Positions 3,428 to 64,000 of a stretch of 64,000 nucleotides of DNA are shown here, one piece after another. Position 1 is the first letter of the stretch; every line of letters starts with the position of its first letter. The DNA is from Lactiplantibacillus brownii (lineage in GTDB: Bacteria > Bacillota > Bacilli > Lactobacillales > Lactobacillaceae), in contig NZ_JAVCWF010000001.1 in the NCBI RefSeq assembly GCF_031085375.1, positions 2,418,001-2,482,000 of the forward strand, written 5' to 3'. Both the position numbers and the translations under genes were made by a program. The notes beneath the pieces were generated by a model, which ran no database searches, was not told the origin of the DNA, and was given only the letters and a program-made list of their open reading frames with translations.

Positions 3428-4120
3428 TTATGCTAATTGTGCATCTTGTGGTAATTTCAATAATTGTGGTCGACTGAAATAGTAACCTTGCTTGAGCTTA
3501 ATTCCTAATTGCTTGCTCAATTGGTTGTCTTCATGATCCTCAATACCTTCTAGCACCATCCGCAAACCATACTCGCGGCTAATCGCATGCCAGAAATGAA
3601 TTTTCTTTTGAATATTCGGATCTTTAAATTGCTTGTTAAAGTTTTGCAACGCAAATTTCACTTCTGAAACTAATGGCAATAAGTCTTGGATTTCATTAAA
3701 ATAATTATCGCCAGTGCCGACATCATCCAGTGAAAGCTGCATGCCGCGATTGAGGAACGTTTTTAGCTGCGGCAATAATTCAGCAACCGTATACTTTTGT
3801 GGTCCGTCCTCTTCAGTTAGCTCAACAGTCAGCTTAGTTGGATAAAGTTGTTCTTGGCTCTTAATAATTGCCGCCGCAATGGAAGTCGTCATCAGCTGTT
3901 CACGGCTGACGTTAACCGAACAATAGCGCACTTTCAACGAAAGTACCCGCGTGGATTCTACTAAAAGATCCGCAATAATTTGTGGATCAATTGCCGAGAA
4001 TGATTCCGGTAAGCGCCAGCCCTCCGGTGTCCATTGCTTCATCAGTAATTCATACCCAAAGATTGACTTAGTATCAGTATTAATTTGTGGTTGTACGAAA
4101 TAACGATAAATTGGCTTCAA
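3428..4120 (-). CDS. Stand-alone EAL-domain protein (c-di-GMP phosphodiesterase-like)
   Basis: A soluble 230-residue protein consisting of a single EAL domain, which hydrolyses cyclic di-GMP when active. The signature positions are mostly kept: FGYELLMK (EAL motif as ELL), VNVSREQL (metal-binding Asn), ELTEEDGP, LDDVGTGDN (DDFGTG motif), VKFALQNF (catalytic Lys), LEGIED (EGVE motif) and KQGYYFSRPQ. It may therefore be catalytically competent, though the EAL and DDFGTG motifs are not canonical. A paralogue of the same length sits at 48648-49340 in an operon with a diguanylate cyclase. This copy is monocistronic and divergent from the NADH oxidase-like gene. Confidence 0.85.
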   Translation of the reverse strand: MKPIYRYFVQPQINTDTKSIFGYELLMKQWTPEGWRLPESFSAIDPQIIADLLVESTRVLSLKVRYCSVNVSREQLMTTSIAAAIIKSQEQLYPTKLTVELTEEDGPQKYTVAELLPQLKTFLNRGMQLSLDDVGTGDNYFNEIQDLLPLVSEVKFALQNFNKQFKDPNIQKKIHFWHAISREYGLRMVLEGIEDHEDNQLSKQLGIKLKQGYYFSRPQLLKLPQDAQLA

Positions 4121-47497: not shown

Positions 47498-48628
47498 TTA
47501 ATCTGTCGTAATTTGCATCCGCCCATTCCGTTTCGAATGGTATAAATTCTGATCGACGCGGTTATAGAAATCAATCGGTGTCGCATCTTCTTTTGACAAC
47601 GCTGAAACCCCAACGGAAATTGTAATTGGAATCTGTTGATTCCCAAAATTCACACCGAGATGATTCAACGCTAAGAAAATCTGTCGCACGATTGTTTCAG
47701 TGCTCGCTAAATCGTAACCGGGGAACAGAATGTTAAATTCCTCACCACCGGTTCGATACAACGTTACCTTTTCGTCGTTCGCATCGATGACCGTTTGCAC
47801 AACATCGGTCACGTGTTGCAATACTCGGTCACCAGCTAAATGGCCATAAGTATCATTAACATGCTTAAAGTGATCAATATCGAACATCATCATCGACAAT
47901 TTTAAGTTGTTTTTTGAACTGTCCTCAAAGAGATATTTGATTTCGCCGGTATACGCCGCAAAGTTCTCCGTTTGCGTGAGCGCATCGTGGCTGGCAAATT
48001 GGGCCAACCGCAACTTAAACTCACTATCACGTGTCAACATGCTGACGTAAGCGTACAGTAAAATTTCAAAGATGACTAAATAAACCCATTCTTGCCAGAA
48101 CGTATTCCAGTCCAAACTAAATTTAACCTTCATCCACAACCATAAAACGCCGCCATACGGAATACCCGCGCACAAATAATAGATCCAAGCGTGCGCCTTA
48201 CCCTGAAAATGAATCCGAATATAGTTCATCGTCCAGAATAACGCCACCATCGTAATGGCGTACCCCCACGATTCCCAATAAGTGATCGATTGGTTGAAAA
48301 CCATGTACACTAAGACCACCGGAAACAGGAAATAGTATGGAATATGAATATTCAAAAAATAACCGCAAAAAATCAGCGCAATCAATTGAAAGTTCATAAA
48401 CTGCCAAGAATCCGATTGCCCAACGATCAAGGTCTGCAAGCTAAACACGAATACCAGCATGTACAAGACCCCATGCCAAGAATTGACAACATCGTCATCA
48501 ATATTAATATGATGGGCATGAAAAAACGCAGTGATCCAATTAAATAGCACCCAGTATAACGTTAACACGCCGAGGATGAAGAAAATGCTGGTTACAAATG
48601 GCGGTACCCGCCAATAAGCCCATGTCAT
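47498..48628 (-). CDS. Membrane-bound diguanylate cyclase (GGDEF)
   Basis: A 376-residue protein with about seven N-terminal hydrophobic segments (residues 10-205) and a C-terminal GGDEF domain. The active site is YRTGGEEFNILF (GGEEF, competent). The metal-binding Asp is in MMFDIDHFKHVNDTYGH. The inhibitory RxxD site upstream of the motif is not present (DANDEKV in that place), so product inhibition may be absent. It makes c-di-GMP from GTP, with the membrane part as probable sensor. It follows an EAL gene by 19 bp in the same operon, so synthesis and breakdown are encoded together. Confidence 0.88.
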   Translation of the reverse strand: MTWAYWRVPPFVTSIFFILGVLTLYWVLFNWITAFFHAHHINIDDDVVNSWHGVLYMLVFVFSLQTLIVGQSDSWQFMNFQLIALIFCGYFLNIHIPYYFLFPVVLVYMVFNQSITYWESWGYAITMVALFWTMNYIRIHFQGKAHAWIYYLCAGIPYGGVLWLWMKVKFSLDWNTFWQEWVYLVIFEILLYAYVSMLTRDSEFKLRLAQFASHDALTQTENFAAYTGEIKYLFEDSSKNNLKLSMMMFDIDHFKHVNDTYGHLAGDRVLQHVTDVVQTVIDANDEKVTLYRTGGEEFNILFPGYDLASTETIVRQIFLALNHLGVNFGNQQIPITISVGVSALSKEDATPIDFYNRVDQNLYHSKRNGRMQITTD

Positions 48629-48647: not shown

Positions 48648-49340
48648 TTATTGACCATCCTGCTGTGACTCTGCACGCCGATCAGGACATTTCACGACCA
48701 ACTGAGGTTTACCATAAAGGTAGCCCTGATGGAGATCAATGCCTAATGTCCGAGCAATTTCCTGGTCATGTGCATCTTCCACACCTTCCAAAATGAAGTC
48801 GAGGTGATACTGTAACGCGACCGTGTGCCAAAAAGATAAGGCAGTCGGAATTTGATCGGCTTTGCCACTCATCCGTAAATTCTGCATGGCAAATTTGATT
48901 TGGTCAACAAACGGTAATAATGGCTCCACATTATCAAAGGTATTGGAGCCCGTCCCAACATCATCAATACTTAATTTAATCCCGTATTGATGAAATAAAA
49001 CACTATATTTTTGAATTTCGGCTAAGGTTGGATTTTCAGTTAATTCAATCGTTAACGCCGCCGGATTTAACCGTTTTTTTAAATAAATAATGGTGCCAAG
49101 CATCAAGTCGTCTTCTGCCTGTTCACGATTCAAATTAAGGGCTAAGACTTGATTAGTTGCTTTAGTTGATAATTGTAAGGCTAATTCTTCGAGTAGATGG
49201 ACCTGTTTAGTTAGTGGCAATTCCGTGAAAGTTGCTGGAACTGCCCAGCGACCATGGGTTTCTTTGCGTAACAACAGTTCATATCCAAAAACGGATTTTT
49301 GGCTCTGATCAACTTGTGGTTGAACAAAAAAGCGATACAT
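48648..49340 (-). CDS. EAL-domain protein (c-di-GMP phosphodiesterase-like), operon partner of the cyclase
   Basis: A soluble 230-residue single EAL domain. FGYELLLRKE (ELL in place of EAL), LNLNREQAEDD, ELTENPTL, IDDVGTGSN, IKFAMQNL, LEGVED and HQGYLYGKPQ cover the catalytic positions, so hydrolysis of c-di-GMP is plausible. It is the same length as the protein of 3428-4120 and clearly paralogous. First gene of a two-gene operon with the GGDEF protein. The start at 49340 gives the same N-terminal layout (YRFFVQPQ) as the paralogue. Confidence 0.86.
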   Translation of the reverse strand: MYRFFVQPQVDQSQKSVFGYELLLRKETHGRWAVPATFTELPLTKQVHLLEELALQLSTKATNQVLALNLNREQAEDDLMLGTIIYLKKRLNPAALTIELTENPTLAEIQKYSVLFHQYGIKLSIDDVGTGSNTFDNVEPLLPFVDQIKFAMQNLRMSGKADQIPTALSFWHTVALQYHLDFILEGVEDAHDQEIARTLGIDLHQGYLYGKPQLVVKCPDRRAESQQDGQ

Positions 49341-58491: not shown

Positions 58492-58744
58492 AACTTATTA
58501 ATATAAATATATTTTACTGGTCTATTTCGTTAATTGAAAGCAAAACCGATGTTTTTTATTGATAGATAAATTAACCTACATCATAATTTCAAACCAATTA
58601 ACCTCAAAACGCTCTGCAATAGTATTCTATCGAACCACCTTTCACAAGAGAAGAAAAGTGACATTTTTGATTGTAAGGATAACTAACAATTATTACCATC
58701 TAAAAAAGGTATTCAGCTATTAGGCCAAATACCAAAAACCACAA

Positions 58745-60331
58745 CTATTCGTTGTCAATCTTAACACGATCTTTTTTTAATTCTAGATCATACCAGCCAA
58801 ATAATCGTTGAAAGTTCACTACTACTCGTTCAAATGAAAAAGTACTTAGTAACAATAAGCATGGCAAATATTGAATCAAATACCGACTACGACCACCTTC
58901 AAACAAAAGTAAAAACATAAATCCACCAACCATTGACAACCGCAACATCTGGATTAAATCTCGACGCGGACCAAAACCGAGCGCAATAATGACCAATAAC
59001 ACAATCCACCAAAGCTGTGCTGCAAATCGAAAATCAGCAATGTGTCTGCCATATAAATAAATGTAATTTTTTAGTTTGTTACTAATGCCATGCTGATTTG
59101 GTTTTTGATTTTCACGAAAGAAATGACCTTCTTTCAACCAACCAAAAGTACCATCCGCGGTATTATTACGTTGTTTCATAATCAGAAACTTGAAATAGCC
59201 CCAACCACCCAACTTTTGTAAACGCCTTTTGAGCATTCTAATTGAGTAATCAGTCTTCTGCTTTTCTGTTGGTAGCACTGCCATTTCAATCGCTTGTTTC
59301 TCACTATAGCCACCCTCACCATAGACTCCCATCGCCATAAAGTGAATGGCGGGAATTGAACGTGAATAGTCTAATTTAATATAAGTTTGATTTTGAACTT
59401 TATCATTGACTATTTTATAAGTTAGACCCGCACTATCTACAATTAACACCAGCATAGCCAAAATTGTAAACACCCCACGACTTGTGAAATGTTTTCTTTG
59501 AACCAACCAAGCCAAAAGCTCAATAATGACAATGGCAATGACTGGAATAATTGATGATGGTTTCATAAAATATGTCAAAGTCACGAAGATGGCAAAAGCA
59601 ACTGTCGCTGTTCCACGCAGCCACAAGGGCATCGTTGCCTTGCGCATTACAAAGTAACATAATAAGAAACCAGAAACGAGCGGCAAGACCCAAGCATCAG
59701 TATACGGCATAATAATACTTGGAAAAACAGCTAACCAACCAGCATGTAGATACATCGCTGCACCAAGCGCCCGTGGTTGTACAATTACAACACTCAATAG
59801 ATTAAAAATTACCGATAAATCAACAAAAAATAGGGTAACATAATCAAAAAAAAGCCACGATGCTTGTCCACTAATTTCAGACAACCAATGCATAAATAAC
59901 ATAATTGGCATGTTGTTTTGGTTCAAACTATAGTAAGCAGTAACACCAATCTCTTGTACGTGTTTAGCACTCGTCGCAGCGTAGTGTAACATACCAGCAT
60001 CGAATCCACTTACAGGATGAACGTAAGTCACGAAAAACACTTGACCAGCCAAGACGAATAATAATAGGATGCTTCCGGTAATCAATTGATGTGTCACAAA
60101 AATACTGACCAGACTAGCATGCACTCGTGGATAAGCATAATTCATAATCAGGATTGCCAGAATACCAATAACCAACCCACTTGTCATCATTGTTGTACTA
60201 GTCCCAAAAGTTGCATTATCCCCAATAATAATATTAGACGAAGTCAACGCAAAAAAAAGCATTAGAAAGAACAAGACCCGCCAAGCCAGATTAATTGTAG
60301 ACTGACTAAAATTATAAAACTTACGCATCAT
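58745..60331 (-). CDS. Multispanning GT-C-like membrane protein of the XrtG operon
   Basis: A 528-residue polytopic membrane protein with about 12 hydrophobic segments, corresponding to the integral membrane family regularly found with XrtG in Firmicutes (recalled as TIGR03766). Its layout resembles GT-C glycosyltransferases or polysaccharide-synthesis permeases. It may use lipid-linked sugar at the outer face; a catalytic Asp pair could not be assigned. The start ATG at 60331 (or 60328) overlaps the end of the pterin-synthase-like gene and has AGGA just upstream. It is last in the operon. Confidence 0.78.
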   Translation of the reverse strand: MMRKFYNFSQSTINLAWRVLFFLMLFFALTSSNIIIGDNATFGTSTTMMTSGLVIGILAILIMNYAYPRVHASLVSIFVTHQLITGSILLLFVLAGQVFFVTYVHPVSGFDAGMLHYAATSAKHVQEIGVTAYYSLNQNNMPIMLFMHWLSEISGQASWLFFDYVTLFFVDLSVIFNLLSVVIVQPRALGAAMYLHAGWLAVFPSIIMPYTDAWVLPLVSGFLLCYFVMRKATMPLWLRGTATVAFAIFVTLTYFMKPSSIIPVIAIVIIELLAWLVQRKHFTSRGVFTILAMLVLIVDSAGLTYKIVNDKVQNQTYIKLDYSRSIPAIHFMAMGVYGEGGYSEKQAIEMAVLPTEKQKTDYSIRMLKRRLQKLGGWGYFKFLIMKQRNNTADGTFGWLKEGHFFRENQKPNQHGISNKLKNYIYLYGRHIADFRFAAQLWWIVLLVIIALGFGPRRDLIQMLRLSMVGGFMFLLLFEGGRSRYLIQYLPCLLLLSTFSFERVVVNFQRLFGWYDLELKKDRVKIDNE

Positions 60332-60755
60332 TGTTTCCTGACTTTTGTTGTTCAGTATCAACCTCTTGTTCAGTTGGAAATTTCCGCTCAGTCACGTCAA
60401 TACAAAACGATCGCGTGGGTGAATCGCTGACTTCAATTCGCAAAAGTACCGCATTGTTTTGGCGTAAAATACCATCAATATTGTCAAAAAGATATTCGGT
60501 CACATTTTCCACAGTTGGATTAATGACCTTGAACTCTGGTAAATCATTTAAAAACTTACCAGATAACCCATCAATAGCTTTATTCAGCGACTTCTCGATG
60601 TCAAAAAAAGAAACCATCCCTTCAAACACATGCAACTCACAAATGATTTCCCAAGTATGATTGTGTTTCTTACCCGTTCCTGACTTCCAACGGACTGCAT
60701 GACTCGCATTAACATAAGATTTAATTTTATATGAACGTTGTTTAGCCATCCTCAT
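60321..60755 (-). CDS. 6-pyruvoyl-tetrahydropterin-synthase-like protein of the XrtG operon
   Basis: A 144-residue member of the PTPS/QueD fold, of the subgroup associated with XrtG (recalled as TIGR03112). Metal-binding His are present: VNASHAVRW (first His) and KKHNHTWEI (HxH). Later family motifs GMVSFFDIEKS and NPTVENVTEYL are also kept. The catalytic Cys found between these His in true PTPS is absent, so the pterin reaction is doubtful. The ATG overlaps the glycosyltransferase stop (ATGA); 60749 is an alternative start. Its role in a surface-glycan system is not known. Confidence 0.8.
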   Translation of the reverse strand: MRMAKQRSYKIKSYVNASHAVRWKSGTGKKHNHTWEIICELHVFEGMVSFFDIEKSLNKAIDGLSGKFLNDLPEFKVINPTVENVTEYLFDNIDGILRQNNAVLLRIEVSDSPTRSFCIDVTERKFPTEQEVDTEQQKSGNNDA

Positions 60756-62110
60756 TTTCCTCTCTTATCTCGACGACGCTGTTCACGAATCGTTTCAACA
60801 TCATCCCGGACAACACTCTTTAATTGTGACATTTCCTGACCGAAGCCACGCATTTGCCAAGTCGCCCTCGTCGTCATTGCATTAATGATTCCAACTAAGC
60901 GAATCCACGAACTGACAAACATATAAAACGGCAATGTCAAAGTTATCCACCATAAATGCAAATAGTAACGACGCTCACCAGGATATTTAAGTAGCAACAC
61001 ACCCACACTGAGATAATTAATTACAGCGACAAATACATAAAGTGCATAGATCAATAAATAGGAAAGCAGCATCACCAATGAAGAATAACCAAAGGCAATC
61101 AACACAAAACTGGCAAAAGTCCAAATCATCCTTGGAAAACTAAAAGTGTGATCAATCATTACCCGTCGGATTAAAAAGTTATTAAAGAAACGCTTCAGAC
61201 TCGCCGATCGATTCATATAGTTTTGGGTGACTTCCATTTCACCTCGTTGCCACCGTTGCCGTTGCGTATATAACTCCCCCATACCAGAGATTGGCTCGAT
61301 ATAAAAAATCGCATCCGCACAAATGACAACCTTTTTCCCCAGGCGCGTTCGAATCTGAAAGGTCATGTCAGTATCCTCCCCAATCGTATCAATATCATAA
61401 AGGAAGGTCTGCATAAGAACTTCGCGACGAAAAGCCGAAAAAGCCCCTGACATCGTAAATAGTTGATCACGTGAAGATTCAATCGTCCGACCAGAAAGAA
61501 AGGCCTGCGCATATTCATAATATTCATTTTTAGCAAGAAACTTATGCCACTTGCCCTTAATCCCATCAATCAATGCCCGTTTAGGTAAAATTGCGCCAGT
61601 CATGGCCGCAATGCTGAGATCATTTTCAAATCGCAAGACCATATTTTTAACCGCATTCGGTTCCAGCAAACCATCACTATCAATATTGATAATATAGGTC
61701 CCAATGCTTTCATAAATCGCGGTATTCAAAGCCCGTGCTTTACCTTGATCAGTATTAACATACCGTAAGATCAATTCTGGAAAAGTATTTTGTGCACGGG
61801 CATAGGCACCAAAACTGTCATCTGTACTTTTATTGTTAGCTAACACAATCTGCATGGCCTTTTTTGAATAAGTCTGATTATTGATCGATTCAATACATTC
61901 AAAGAGCGTATCTTCTGAATTATGAACCGGCACAATAATCGTTACCCAAGGCCATTTACCTGGCGGGATTAACTTTGGCTCATGTTTGTGCATCCGCATC
62001 AACTTAATCGTCGATACGATTGCTGGAATGATTTCCACGACAATTGGGATTAGCGCCCAAGTGATCCAGAAACCCATTCTGGTCAGTGCTAGATTAATCC
62101 AGTACATCAC
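60752..62110 (-). CDS. Processive family-2 glycosyltransferase of the XrtG operon
   Basis: A 452-residue membrane-bound GT2. One N-terminal helix precedes the cytosolic catalytic domain: VTIIVPVHNSEDTLFECIES, DxD at about 144-146 (INIDSDG), GED at about 244-246 (TIGEDTDMTF) and QRQRW at about 283-287. These are the D, D, Q(Q)RW signature of processive enzymes such as cellulose and hyaluronan synthases. Three to four C-terminal helices form the likely channel. No PilZ domain is visible. It is the XrtG-associated GT2 (recalled as TIGR03111). It overlaps xrtG by 4 bases. Confidence 0.87.
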   Translation of the reverse strand: MMYWINLALTRMGFWITWALIPIVVEIIPAIVSTIKLMRMHKHEPKLIPPGKWPWVTIIVPVHNSEDTLFECIESINNQTYSKKAMQIVLANNKSTDDSFGAYARAQNTFPELILRYVNTDQGKARALNTAIYESIGTYIINIDSDGLLEPNAVKNMVLRFENDLSIAAMTGAILPKRALIDGIKGKWHKFLAKNEYYEYAQAFLSGRTIESSRDQLFTMSGAFSAFRREVLMQTFLYDIDTIGEDTDMTFQIRTRLGKKVVICADAIFYIEPISGMGELYTQRQRWQRGEMEVTQNYMNRSASLKRFFNNFLIRRVMIDHTFSFPRMIWTFASFVLIAFGYSSLVMLLSYLLIYALYVFVAVINYLSVGVLLLKYPGERRYYLHLWWITLTLPFYMFVSSWIRLVGIINAMTTRATWQMRGFGQEMSQLKSVVRDDVETIREQRRRDKRGK

Positions 62111-62706
62111 AACTTATCGTGCCTCCAATCCAGAAATTCTCGATAGATTCCACGTGCCAACTGTGAATAAGTAAAAACGTTGTAATACAAGGCAATCACT
62201 AAAACGTAAAACACCAGTCGTCCAATGATTGAATGGGCAATAAAGAACGTTTCACCACCGCCAAAATGCACGATAACAATCACAACAACCAACCGTAAAA
62301 CATTAATCAAGTAAATATAAACTAGGCCAAAAAGGCCATAGAACACTTTTTCTTTGCGTTCATACATCGGGAAAAACGCCACCAAAGCAATAAACGCACA
62401 GGTTTCAATAATTCCAGAACATTCATAATCAATTGACATCATGACCGCATTTTGACCATTACCGATGTAAACAAGTCCAGATTTAAACAGGACAGTGCAC
62501 CAATTCGTGATATCACTGAATAGGGCCACACCATGGATAACTGCATGGGTGAAAAACCACACCCAATACGGCCGACTAATCGCTGAAAGGATAAAGAAAA
62601 GTCCAGCACTCCCAATAATAAATAAATAAGCGGAAAGCTGGGCTCGCTTTAGCACTGACAGGACGTAAAGCCATACTACAGTTCCCAGTATGATAGTTAC
62701 GTTCAT
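62107..62706 (-). CDS. xrtG: Exosortase XrtG
   Basis: A 199-residue integral membrane cysteine protease/transpeptidase of the Firmicute exosortase family (recalled as TIGR03110), with about six helices. The exosortase triad is in place: Cys 96 in DYECSGIIET, Arg 138 in INVLRLVVV and His 158 in FFIAHSIIGR. The enzyme is predicted to cut the C-terminal tripartite signal of a substrate and join it to an acceptor. The best substrate is the protein encoded directly upstream. Its stop overlaps the glycosyltransferase start. Confidence 0.88.
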   Translation of the reverse strand: MNVTIILGTVVWLYVLSVLKRAQLSAYLFIIGSAGLFFILSAISRPYWVWFFTHAVIHGVALFSDITNWCTVLFKSGLVYIGNGQNAVMMSIDYECSGIIETCAFIALVAFFPMYERKEKVFYGLFGLVYIYLINVLRLVVVIVIVHFGGGETFFIAHSIIGRLVFYVLVIALYYNVFTYSQLARGIYREFLDWRHDKL

Positions 62707-62752
62707 TTCACATCAGTCCTATTAATTAACTTGTCAAACATTGTAATCCAAA

Positions 62753-64000
62753 TTACTTACCACTCATTCGACGTCCTTTACGCGTCAATAGACCAGCTTT
62801 GCGAAGCCGATAATAACCAAATCCCACAATGGCAACACCAATACCAGAAATCAAGATCGGCCCTGTTGACCCACCGGCCACTGTGACTTTCTGACTCGTA
62901 ATGTTTGGGTTGTACATCGTAATTGTTTGCCCTGTCATCGAAGATACACCAAGCTTACCCAAACTAACTTTAAACTCAGCAATATTATACCCATCTTTAC
63001 TGGAAACATAGCCAGTCCCAACATCAATGCCTTGGTCGTCAGCCTGGTTATCGGCACCTTTAAAGGTAACCTTTTGCGCACTGCCCTCAGCGACCTGAGA
63101 GCTCGGCATGTCTTTGGACCAAACATAAACTTTTTTACCACCAATATCGAAGTCATAATCACCATAGCCTGGCACAGTACCATACTTCATGACAACATAG
63201 ACATAAACAGCATCGCCATCACTTACCATGGCAAACTTACCACTATCGTATTGACCACCTGTCAGTGTGACATTCTTCCAGTCAGCAAATTTACCATCGA
63301 TCACAATATTCAGATTATCATTATCGTTATTTGCATTGCCATCCGTGGTCGTGGTGTCTTTCGAACTAGAATCCGCTTTACCATCAATGACCCCGGCAGC
63401 CGTTGAGCTAGAGCTGACACTACTGCTAGAGCTACTTGAAACAACACTACTACTGGTGCTACTACTGCTTGAAGCGGCACTACTACTATCACTACCTGAA
63501 TTTCCCATTGAGGTCACCGTTGTCGTAGCTGCATTACTCCCAATATTAGGGTTAGTGAAAGAGGCTTGTTTTCCGACAACTGTGCCATTAAGTCCAAATG
63601 ACTTCAGGTTGACTCTAAATTCGCCATAATTATTTTTACCATCATTCATCACATAACCGTTACCCACTGTGCCGTACTGTGTGCCATCATAGTCGGACCC
63701 ACCAGTGACCGTAACCGCTTTGGTTTTACCACTGTCAACACTAGTATCGCTCAACCATGCATGATAAGTTTTACCATTGATTATAAAAATATAATCACCA
63801 TGTGTTGGCACATTACCATTTTGCATTTTGACATACACATTGAGGTAACGACCATTATCAACTAATGCGGTTGACCCGTTATAACCATTAGTCAATGTCG
63901 CGCCACTCCAGTCCGAGAACTGACCATCAATTGAAATGGCTGAACTCGTACTGTTGGCTGCCGACGAAGCGGCATTAACCGTCGTCGGTCCCGTTAGCGT
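62753..64000 (-). CDS. Firmicu-CTERM-like surface protein, substrate of XrtG, 5' end outside window
   Basis: The frame is open to the right edge, with 415 residues visible. The first visible residues, TLTGPTTVNAASSAANS, look like the end of a signal peptide. Two related domains follow, each starting IDGxFxDW (ISIDGQFSDWSG and IVIDGKFADWKN), reminiscent of CBM9/DOMON-like carbohydrate-binding folds. Between them is a Ser-rich linker with runs of up to seven Ser. The C-terminus ends in a glycine, a single hydrophobic helix (PILISGIGVAIVGFGYYRL) and a basic tail, the Firmicu-CTERM pattern. It lies 46 bp upstream of xrtG in the same direction. Confidence 0.82.
   Translation of the reverse strand, partial: TLTGPTTVNAASSAANSTSSAISIDGQFSDWSGATLTNGYNGSTALVDNGRYLNVYVKMQNGNVPTHGDYIFIINGKTYHAWLSDTSVDSGKTKAVTVTGGSDYDGTQYGTVGNGYVMNDGKNNYGEFRVNLKSFGLNGTVVGKQASFTNPNIGSNAATTTVTSMGNSGSDSSSAASSSSSTSSSVVSSSSSSSVSSSSTAAGVIDGKADSSSKDTTTTDGNANNDNDNLNIVIDGKFADWKNVTLTGGQYDSGKFAMVSDGDAVYVYVVMKYGTVPGYGDYDFDIGGKKVYVWSKDMPSSQVAEGSAQKVTFKGADNQADDQGIDVGTGYVSSKDGYNIAEFKVSLGKLGVSSMTGQTITMYNPNITSQKVTVAGGSTGPILISGIGVAIVGFGYYRLRKAGLLTRKGRRMSGK

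Follow-up and report, generated by a model that had tools for sequence, protein, structure and literature searches.

An exosortase G operon of Lactiplantibacillus brownii and its proposed place in a surface-polysaccharide system

The described systems closest to the locus treated here are the PEP-CTERM/exosortase (EpsH) system, the XrtG family set named in NCBIfam and a c-di-GMP (cyclic diguanosine monophosphate)-linked synthase operon of lactobacilli. According to its description of 2006, the PEP-CTERM/exosortase system is present in no Firmicutes and has 1 to 65 substrates per genome, with a median of 8 (PMC1569441); a PEP-CTERM gene has been tied to floc formation (PMC9850573). Transcripts of the XrtG system of L. 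plantarum (CTERM, Xrt and two glycosyltransferases) were raised in interferon-inducing, self-aggregating strains (PMC12854382), and a table for Levilactobacillus brevis includes an exosortase G-associated GT2 (PMC8951740). In L. acidophilus an operon with a BcsA/PgaC-like GT2 also encodes an EAL-type c-di-GMP receptor, and raised DgcA increased both exopolysaccharide and co-aggregation (PMC6123363). Here we analyze an XrtG operon located in a stretch of 64,000 nucleotides of Lactiplantibacillus brownii (assembly GCF_031085375.1, contig NZ_JAVCWF010000001.1, positions 2,418,001 to 2,482,000), referred to below as the window. A preliminary description of the locus, made from its sequence, had called the function of XrtG undescribed; in agreement with this, no functional study of XrtG was found in the open-licence PubMed Central literature, which leaves subscription papers and preprints outside.

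Five genes and their distribution among Lactobacillaceae

The operon consists of five open reading frames, all on the minus strand of positions 58745..64000, encoding a Firmicu-CTERM protein, XrtG, a processive-type synthase of family GT2, a PTPS-like protein and a GT-C glycosyltransferase. All five are intact and lie where the preliminary description had placed its five-gene operon. The hidden Markov models it had proposed for checking the families all matched above their cut-offs: TIGR04145 for the CTERM protein (210.6 bits in two stretches, cut-off 50), TIGR03110 for XrtG (252.3 bits, cut-off 102.75), TIGR03111 for the GT2 (683.5 bits, cut-off 363.95), TIGR03112 for the PTPS-like protein (125.4 bits, cut-off 69.35) and TIGR03766 for the GT-C protein (719.1 bits, cut-off 500). 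The absence of any exosortase hit had been named as an outcome that would speak against the assignment, and the TIGR03110 match shows that this is not the case.

The five families were then followed in an even sampling of Lactobacillaceae, 151 genomes in all. XrtG was matched in 27 of these genomes, distributed over 13 of 40 genera. At an E value of 1e-100 the GT2 model was matched in exactly the same 27 genomes, one of which (G075) falls below the model cut-off and has internal stops in the gene. The CTERM model likewise matched these 27 genomes, 26 of them above the cut-off (the match of G104 reached 47.7 bits), together with a single 19.8-bit hit elsewhere. These results bear out the earlier family assignments, and they support a tight bond of XrtG with the CTERM protein and with the GT2. 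The interpretation in the preliminary description is supported in part, the cleavage, release or glycosylation of the protein suggested there being predictions. The PTPS model matched 26 of the 27 XrtG genomes, 24 of them above the cut-off and with pieces in G112 and G128; outside this set it matched G019, whose contig stops inside the GT2 gene, and a fragment in G083. The GT-C model was matched above the cut-off in 24 of the 27 genomes; in G007 and G112 its frames are split, and G020 has no match. It was also matched above the cut-off in G019 and G127, in which XrtG was not matched; weaker GT-C-like matches are frequent among the genomes. In this set of 27, stops or splits affect XrtG in G057, the GT2 in G057 and G075, the CTERM gene in G057, G145 and one domain of G076, the PTPS-like gene in G057, G112 and G128, and the GT-C gene in G007, G057, G112, G125 and G145.

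The genome to which the window belongs, a 3.35 Mb Lactobacillaceae assembly of 11 contigs, contains a single XrtG and a single CTERM gene, and no second CTERM tail was found in it (next best E value 0.63). Because of this, and of the shared distribution over genomes, XrtG looks like a one-substrate enzyme linked to one synthase. Three Levilactobacillus-type genomes have two XrtG systems each (L013/L036, L014/L034 and L039/L064), every one with its own CTERM gene or genes.

Related loci were compared using the best 80 of 209 confirmed places, giving 81 loci with the one studied here. The prevailing gene order is CTERM-XrtG-GT2-PTPS-GT-C, and in some loci members are moved, inverted or missing. 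The best named locus is that of Lactiplantibacillus nangangensis, whose XrtG is 87% identical. In the window a gap of 46 bp separates the CTERM and XrtG genes, and the genes that follow overlap by 4 bp (XrtG/GT2), 4 bp (GT2/PTPS) and 11 bp (PTPS/GT-C), as the preliminary description had reported; the last overlap grows to 41 bp if the GT-C gene starts at TTG 60361 instead of ATG 60331. A terminator-like hairpin agreeing with the consensus is located 3′ of the last gene (58708-58733, minus strand), although such sites are not enriched in the window, the scan having found 2 against a shuffle mean of 5.3.

A proposed role for XrtG and its substrate

We propose that the operon encodes a dedicated surface-polysaccharide system with an exosortase-sorted, CBM9-like partner and, where the genes are linked, a c-di-GMP switch. 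We consider the chances of this proposal as a whole to be evenly divided: families, co-occurrence, residues, motif, fold matches and linkage are read from sequence, and every reaction, the acceptor, the sugar and the control by c-di-GMP are inferred. Like BcsA, PgaC and hyaluronan synthase, the GT2 would polymerise, and probably extrude, a homopolysaccharide, and the GT-C protein, acting outside with polyprenyl-phosphate sugars, would modify the polysaccharide or its anchor. The CTERM protein would be secreted and retained via its C-terminal helix. XrtG, through C96, R138 and H158, would cut the motif GGSTGP, most likely between Thr and Gly, and would hand the protein to a nucleophile from the same system, a glycan or glycolipid. 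The CBM9-like domains would then keep the polysaccharide at the cell, and in loci with linked cyclase and phosphodiesterase genes the synthase would be switched by c-di-GMP.

The xrtG gene (62107..62706, minus strand) encodes 199 residues. Exosortases act through a catalytic Cys, Arg and His, and the corresponding residues C96 (62419-62421), R138 (62293-62295) and H158 (62233-62235), already judged intact in the preliminary description, are invariant in all 28 aligned proteins. The score of XrtG on the Pfam model Exosortase_EpsH (PF09721) is just below gathering (23.6 versus 25.7 bits), and no solved relative was found by sequence.

The CTERM gene (62753..64000, minus strand) encodes 435 residues, the first 20 codons of which lie in the 60 bases beyond the window end; its complete frame in the same genome is L002:6754-8061. 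Its N-terminus resembles a signal peptide as judged by eye. Two CBM9-like domains follow, the first at 63503..63937 (TIGR04145 match 1-166 of 191, 75.1 bits) and the second at 62876..63319, after which come the sorting motif GGSTGP (62858..62875; its Thr is residue 399 of 435) and the tail of hydrophobic helix and basic C-terminus (62756..62857). Fold matching placed CBM9 among the top matches; conserved aromatic columns, present in the alignment of the domain, are candidates for sugar binding.

Out of 90 CTERM reading frames examined, 82 yielded a motif; the other eight are mostly apparent fragments, although L030:9038-10000 holds an overlooked SGSTGP, and one of the motifs counted is spurious (GQTTAF, L030:8591). 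The pattern demanded the first Gly and either Thr or Ser at the fourth place, so the first Gly is present in 82/82 tails by construction. At the fourth place Thr was found in 81 of the 82 tails. At the places left free, Gly follows Thr in 77 tails and Pro is present in 68. The motif Gly and Thr are also invariant in alignment A2 (49/49), a figure that shares the bias of the pattern because the rows came from motif-located tails. Alignment A2 holds 48 of 74 listed references, A3 39 of 63 and A4 21 of 69, each with the window's own sequence added.

The CBM9-like fold of the protein is equally compatible with covalent and with non-covalent attachment to the polysaccharide, and it is here that the first alternative arises. 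XrtG might only cleave the protein and pass it to a membrane lipid, as has been proposed for archaeosortase A, with the polysaccharide as a non-covalent partner of the CBM9-like domains, binding that the fold would provide. XrtG does match the shared exosortase/archaeosortase signature TIGR04178 (64.4 bits), but a common lipid alone does not require the dedicated GT2 pairing seen in 27 of 27 genomes, and we regard this alternative as possible but doubtful.

Genes for c-di-GMP turnover near XrtG

The preliminary description was silent on diguanylate cyclase and EAL genes that recur near XrtG, the nearest of which in the present case lie outside 58745..64000. Of the 81 loci, 16 have a GGDEF gene and 11 a gene of the EAL cluster at a distance of up to about 10 kb from XrtG, giving a union of 21. 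The EAL set is one BLAST cluster, so that other EAL genes may be missed; some of its members are degenerate, and the loci include near-duplicates (L054/L055 from one species; L058/L059, both Enterococcus). In several loci the genes are part of the operon run itself, a series of overlapping or closely spaced genes on the same strand. In two Enterococcus loci the order GT-C, EAL, GGDEF, CTERM is found in this run. The run of Ligilactobacillus saerimneri has GGDEF at its start and EAL at its end, two Limosilactobacillus loci have EAL within it, and that of a Streptococcaceae metagenome-assembled genome (MAG) has GGDEF, EAL, CTERM and XrtG in this order. In the Lactobacillaceae genome G112 EAL and GGDEF genes directly precede the CTERM gene, with the PTPS-like and GT-C genes broken. 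Locus L068, labelled as an archaeal MAG, looks like a Firmicute contig and has EAL, GGDEF and the five-gene set.

At the level of whole genomes, and among the matches listed, GGDEF is present in 25 of the 27 XrtG genomes versus 43 of the 124 others (Fisher P 2.8e-8) and EAL in 25 versus 31 (P 4.9e-11), values that ignore kinship and genome size. A comparison of coordinates, which is less exposed to both, gave eight of the 27 genomes with a GGDEF at most 10 kb from XrtG, where 0.65 would be expected (Poisson P 4.6e-7); the eight include the degenerate GGDEF of G110 (30 bits) and exclude G015, for which two contigs would have to adjoin.

The plasmid pBV60 of Lactococcus lactis, typed as conjugative, carries diguanylate cyclase, EAL, CTERM, XrtG, GT2, PTPS-like and GT-C genes in this order. 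Because an L. lactis control genome, which comes from a strain other than the pBV60 host and did give a match in the GT-C search, has no GGDEF, EAL or PilZ among the matches listed, this cassette may bring its own signalling, and a receptor may be among its seven genes. Beside another XrtG cassette (L084:7624-11830) lie a second synthase-like GT2, a degenerate GGDEF protein and a protein of 696 residues whose N-terminus resembles a signal.

Several results weigh against control of the synthase by c-di-GMP. In 60 of the 81 loci neither a GGDEF gene nor one of the EAL cluster is near XrtG, and two XrtG genomes have no c-di-GMP gene among the matches listed: G010, in which the CTERM, XrtG, PTPS and GT-C genes are recognisable and the GT2 match is free of stops, and G145, in which GT-C is split and the CTERM frame has a stop. 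In the L. brownii genome itself, which has at least 7 GGDEF and 6 EAL matches, the cyclase is near the operon but outside it. The 60 loci and the two genomes favor the alternative that the link is incidental, larger, free-living lactobacilli carrying both kinds of gene in variable surface or biofilm islands. So does a quick XrtG tree of 82 rows with long branches flagged, on which the linkage label is weakly clustered: it needs 17 changes, at least 9 of them forced by starred branches, and 21 of 500 shuffles were as low. Gains are indistinguishable from losses on this tree, so that the linkage may be old and repeatedly lost or may have been gained repeatedly. The overlapping placement inside the operon in several genera and the seven-gene cassette of pBV60 argue against a merely incidental link, which we consider unlikely.

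Other genes around the operon were as follows. In the window a GGDEF domain (47513-47995) lies near an EAL domain (48705-49328), both on the minus strand about 13-15 kb from xrtG, and a further EAL domain is located at 3467-4096 (minus strand). Between the CTERM gene and a GGDEF gene, on the opposite strand, are two genes that we take to be def-like and ApbE-like (L002:8520-9964), relatives of which are also near xrtG in L003-L005. The GGDEF gene is adjoined by a gene for an LPXTG surface protein of 1160 residues with a KxYKxGKxW signal (L002:11582-15064), which matches an internalin-J model under that model's cut-off.

The GT2, PTPS-like and GT-C proteins and likeness to known systems

The GT2 gene (60752..62110, minus strand, GTG start) encodes 452 residues. 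Its motifs DSD (144-146), ED (245-246) and QRQRW (283-287), which the preliminary description had likewise found intact, are each kept in at least 74 of 76 proteins (those above 550 bits, from 96 hits). By its family profile it resembles BcsA (matched over 49-363) and hyaluronan synthase (118-290), and other GT2 catalytic domains are matched more strongly. The C-terminal PilZ domain that marks the c-di-GMP-activated BcsA type was not found in the GT2 by a Pfam scan; the sole PilZ match of the genome is in a 685-residue frame distant from the operon (G000:C1:366835-367137).

The PTPS-like protein (60321..60755, minus strand, 144 residues) also matches PF01242 (50.1 bits, gathering 22.4). Counted in 64 proteins, one per locus (above 100 bits, from 67 hits), its three zinc His are kept in 63, 63 and 64, and it has the T-x-E-N motif and the acidic pterin anchor, residues whose roles we assume to be those of PTPS. 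The Cys and the Asp-His pair that we take as the mark of PTPS catalysis are gone: the place of the Cys is taken by Ser25, where Cys is not one of the six commonest letters (together 60/64), and the pair is replaced by Ser65-Gly66 (Gly in 62/64). The protein is thus predicted to be catalytically dead and to keep a pocket suited to a guanine-like pterin. This is part of the most specific form of our proposal, in which XrtG would link the polysaccharide made by the GT2 covalently to the CBM9-like substrate, at the Thr of GGST-GP, and the PTPS-like protein would be a c-di-GMP or guanine-nucleotide sensor switching the synthase; in that full form we consider it very improbable.

The GT-C gene (58745..60361, minus strand) encodes 538 residues from TTG, or 528 from the ATG. 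Fold matching confirmed the GT-C fold, and no solved relative was found by sequence. An acidic residue, D121, is invariant in 40/40 proteins and has a putative catalytic role in the first outer loop. That GT-C and GT2 glycosylate the CTERM protein directly, for example in a Ser-rich linker, with XrtG releasing it, is improbable, since many of its relatives have a single domain (about 217-270 residues) and the GT2 resembles processive synthases along its whole length.

Clostridial loci show variants of the set. In two MAGs, one of Agathobacter and one of Eubacterium, GT-C is replaced by a PF10131 'PTPS_related' membrane protein encoded directly after the PTPS-like gene, and the annotated order is the same in Lachnospira (Eubacterium) eligens. 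Between GT2 and PTPS lies a gene of about 360 residues without Pfam hit (L076:7082-8158, L080:11993-13099), a place taken in E. eligens by a hypothetical protein. The XrtG-type GT2 of the Agathobacter MAG has a fused PF00884 sulfatase-superfamily domain (L076:4226-7063), reminiscent of phosphoglycerol transferases such as LtaS. These variants hint that the polymer may be decorated and that the PTPS-like protein may be a long-standing partner of large membrane transferases.

As a gene find the operon is ordinary, a typical example of a set of families that already have names. It is of interest because that set is functionally blank and the results yield a compact, testable proposal. The system is small, with one substrate gene and, here, one synthase, and occurs in food bacteria and also as a seven-gene plasmid cassette; the long-standing question of which acceptor an exosortase joins to its substrate therefore becomes testable in a laboratory strain. 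If the c-di-GMP link is true, it would name an output for c-di-GMP in lactobacilli.

With the XrtG system of NCBIfam the locus shares all five models above cut-off and the usual gene order; nothing of substance differs in the window, and the five models include no c-di-GMP genes. The gts operon of L. acidophilus (dgcA, pdeA, PdeB) is similar in linking a BcsA/PgaC-like GT2 with GGDEF and EAL proteins, a likeness that is by description, the main text of PMC6123363 not containing the words exosortase or 6-pyruvoyl. The GT2 resembles BcsA, PgaC and hyaluronan synthase in its DxD, ED and QxxRW motifs, membrane helices and profile matches, but lacks PilZ and is far under the cut-off of the PgaC/IcaA model (113.9 versus 422.3 bits). 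Similarly, the PTPS-like protein resembles PTPS/QueD in the zinc His, T-x-E-N motif and pterin anchor but not in the catalytic residues, and the GT-C protein differs from ArnT and other GT-C transferases in having no solved relative by sequence. The PEP-CTERM/exosortase system (PMC1569441) is alike in the C-terminal motif, helix and basic tail of its substrates, the sortase-like residue triad of its membrane protein and its tie to exopolysaccharide genes. Unlike that system, the locus described here has one substrate gene, belongs to a Gram-positive cell and uses the motif GGSTGP.
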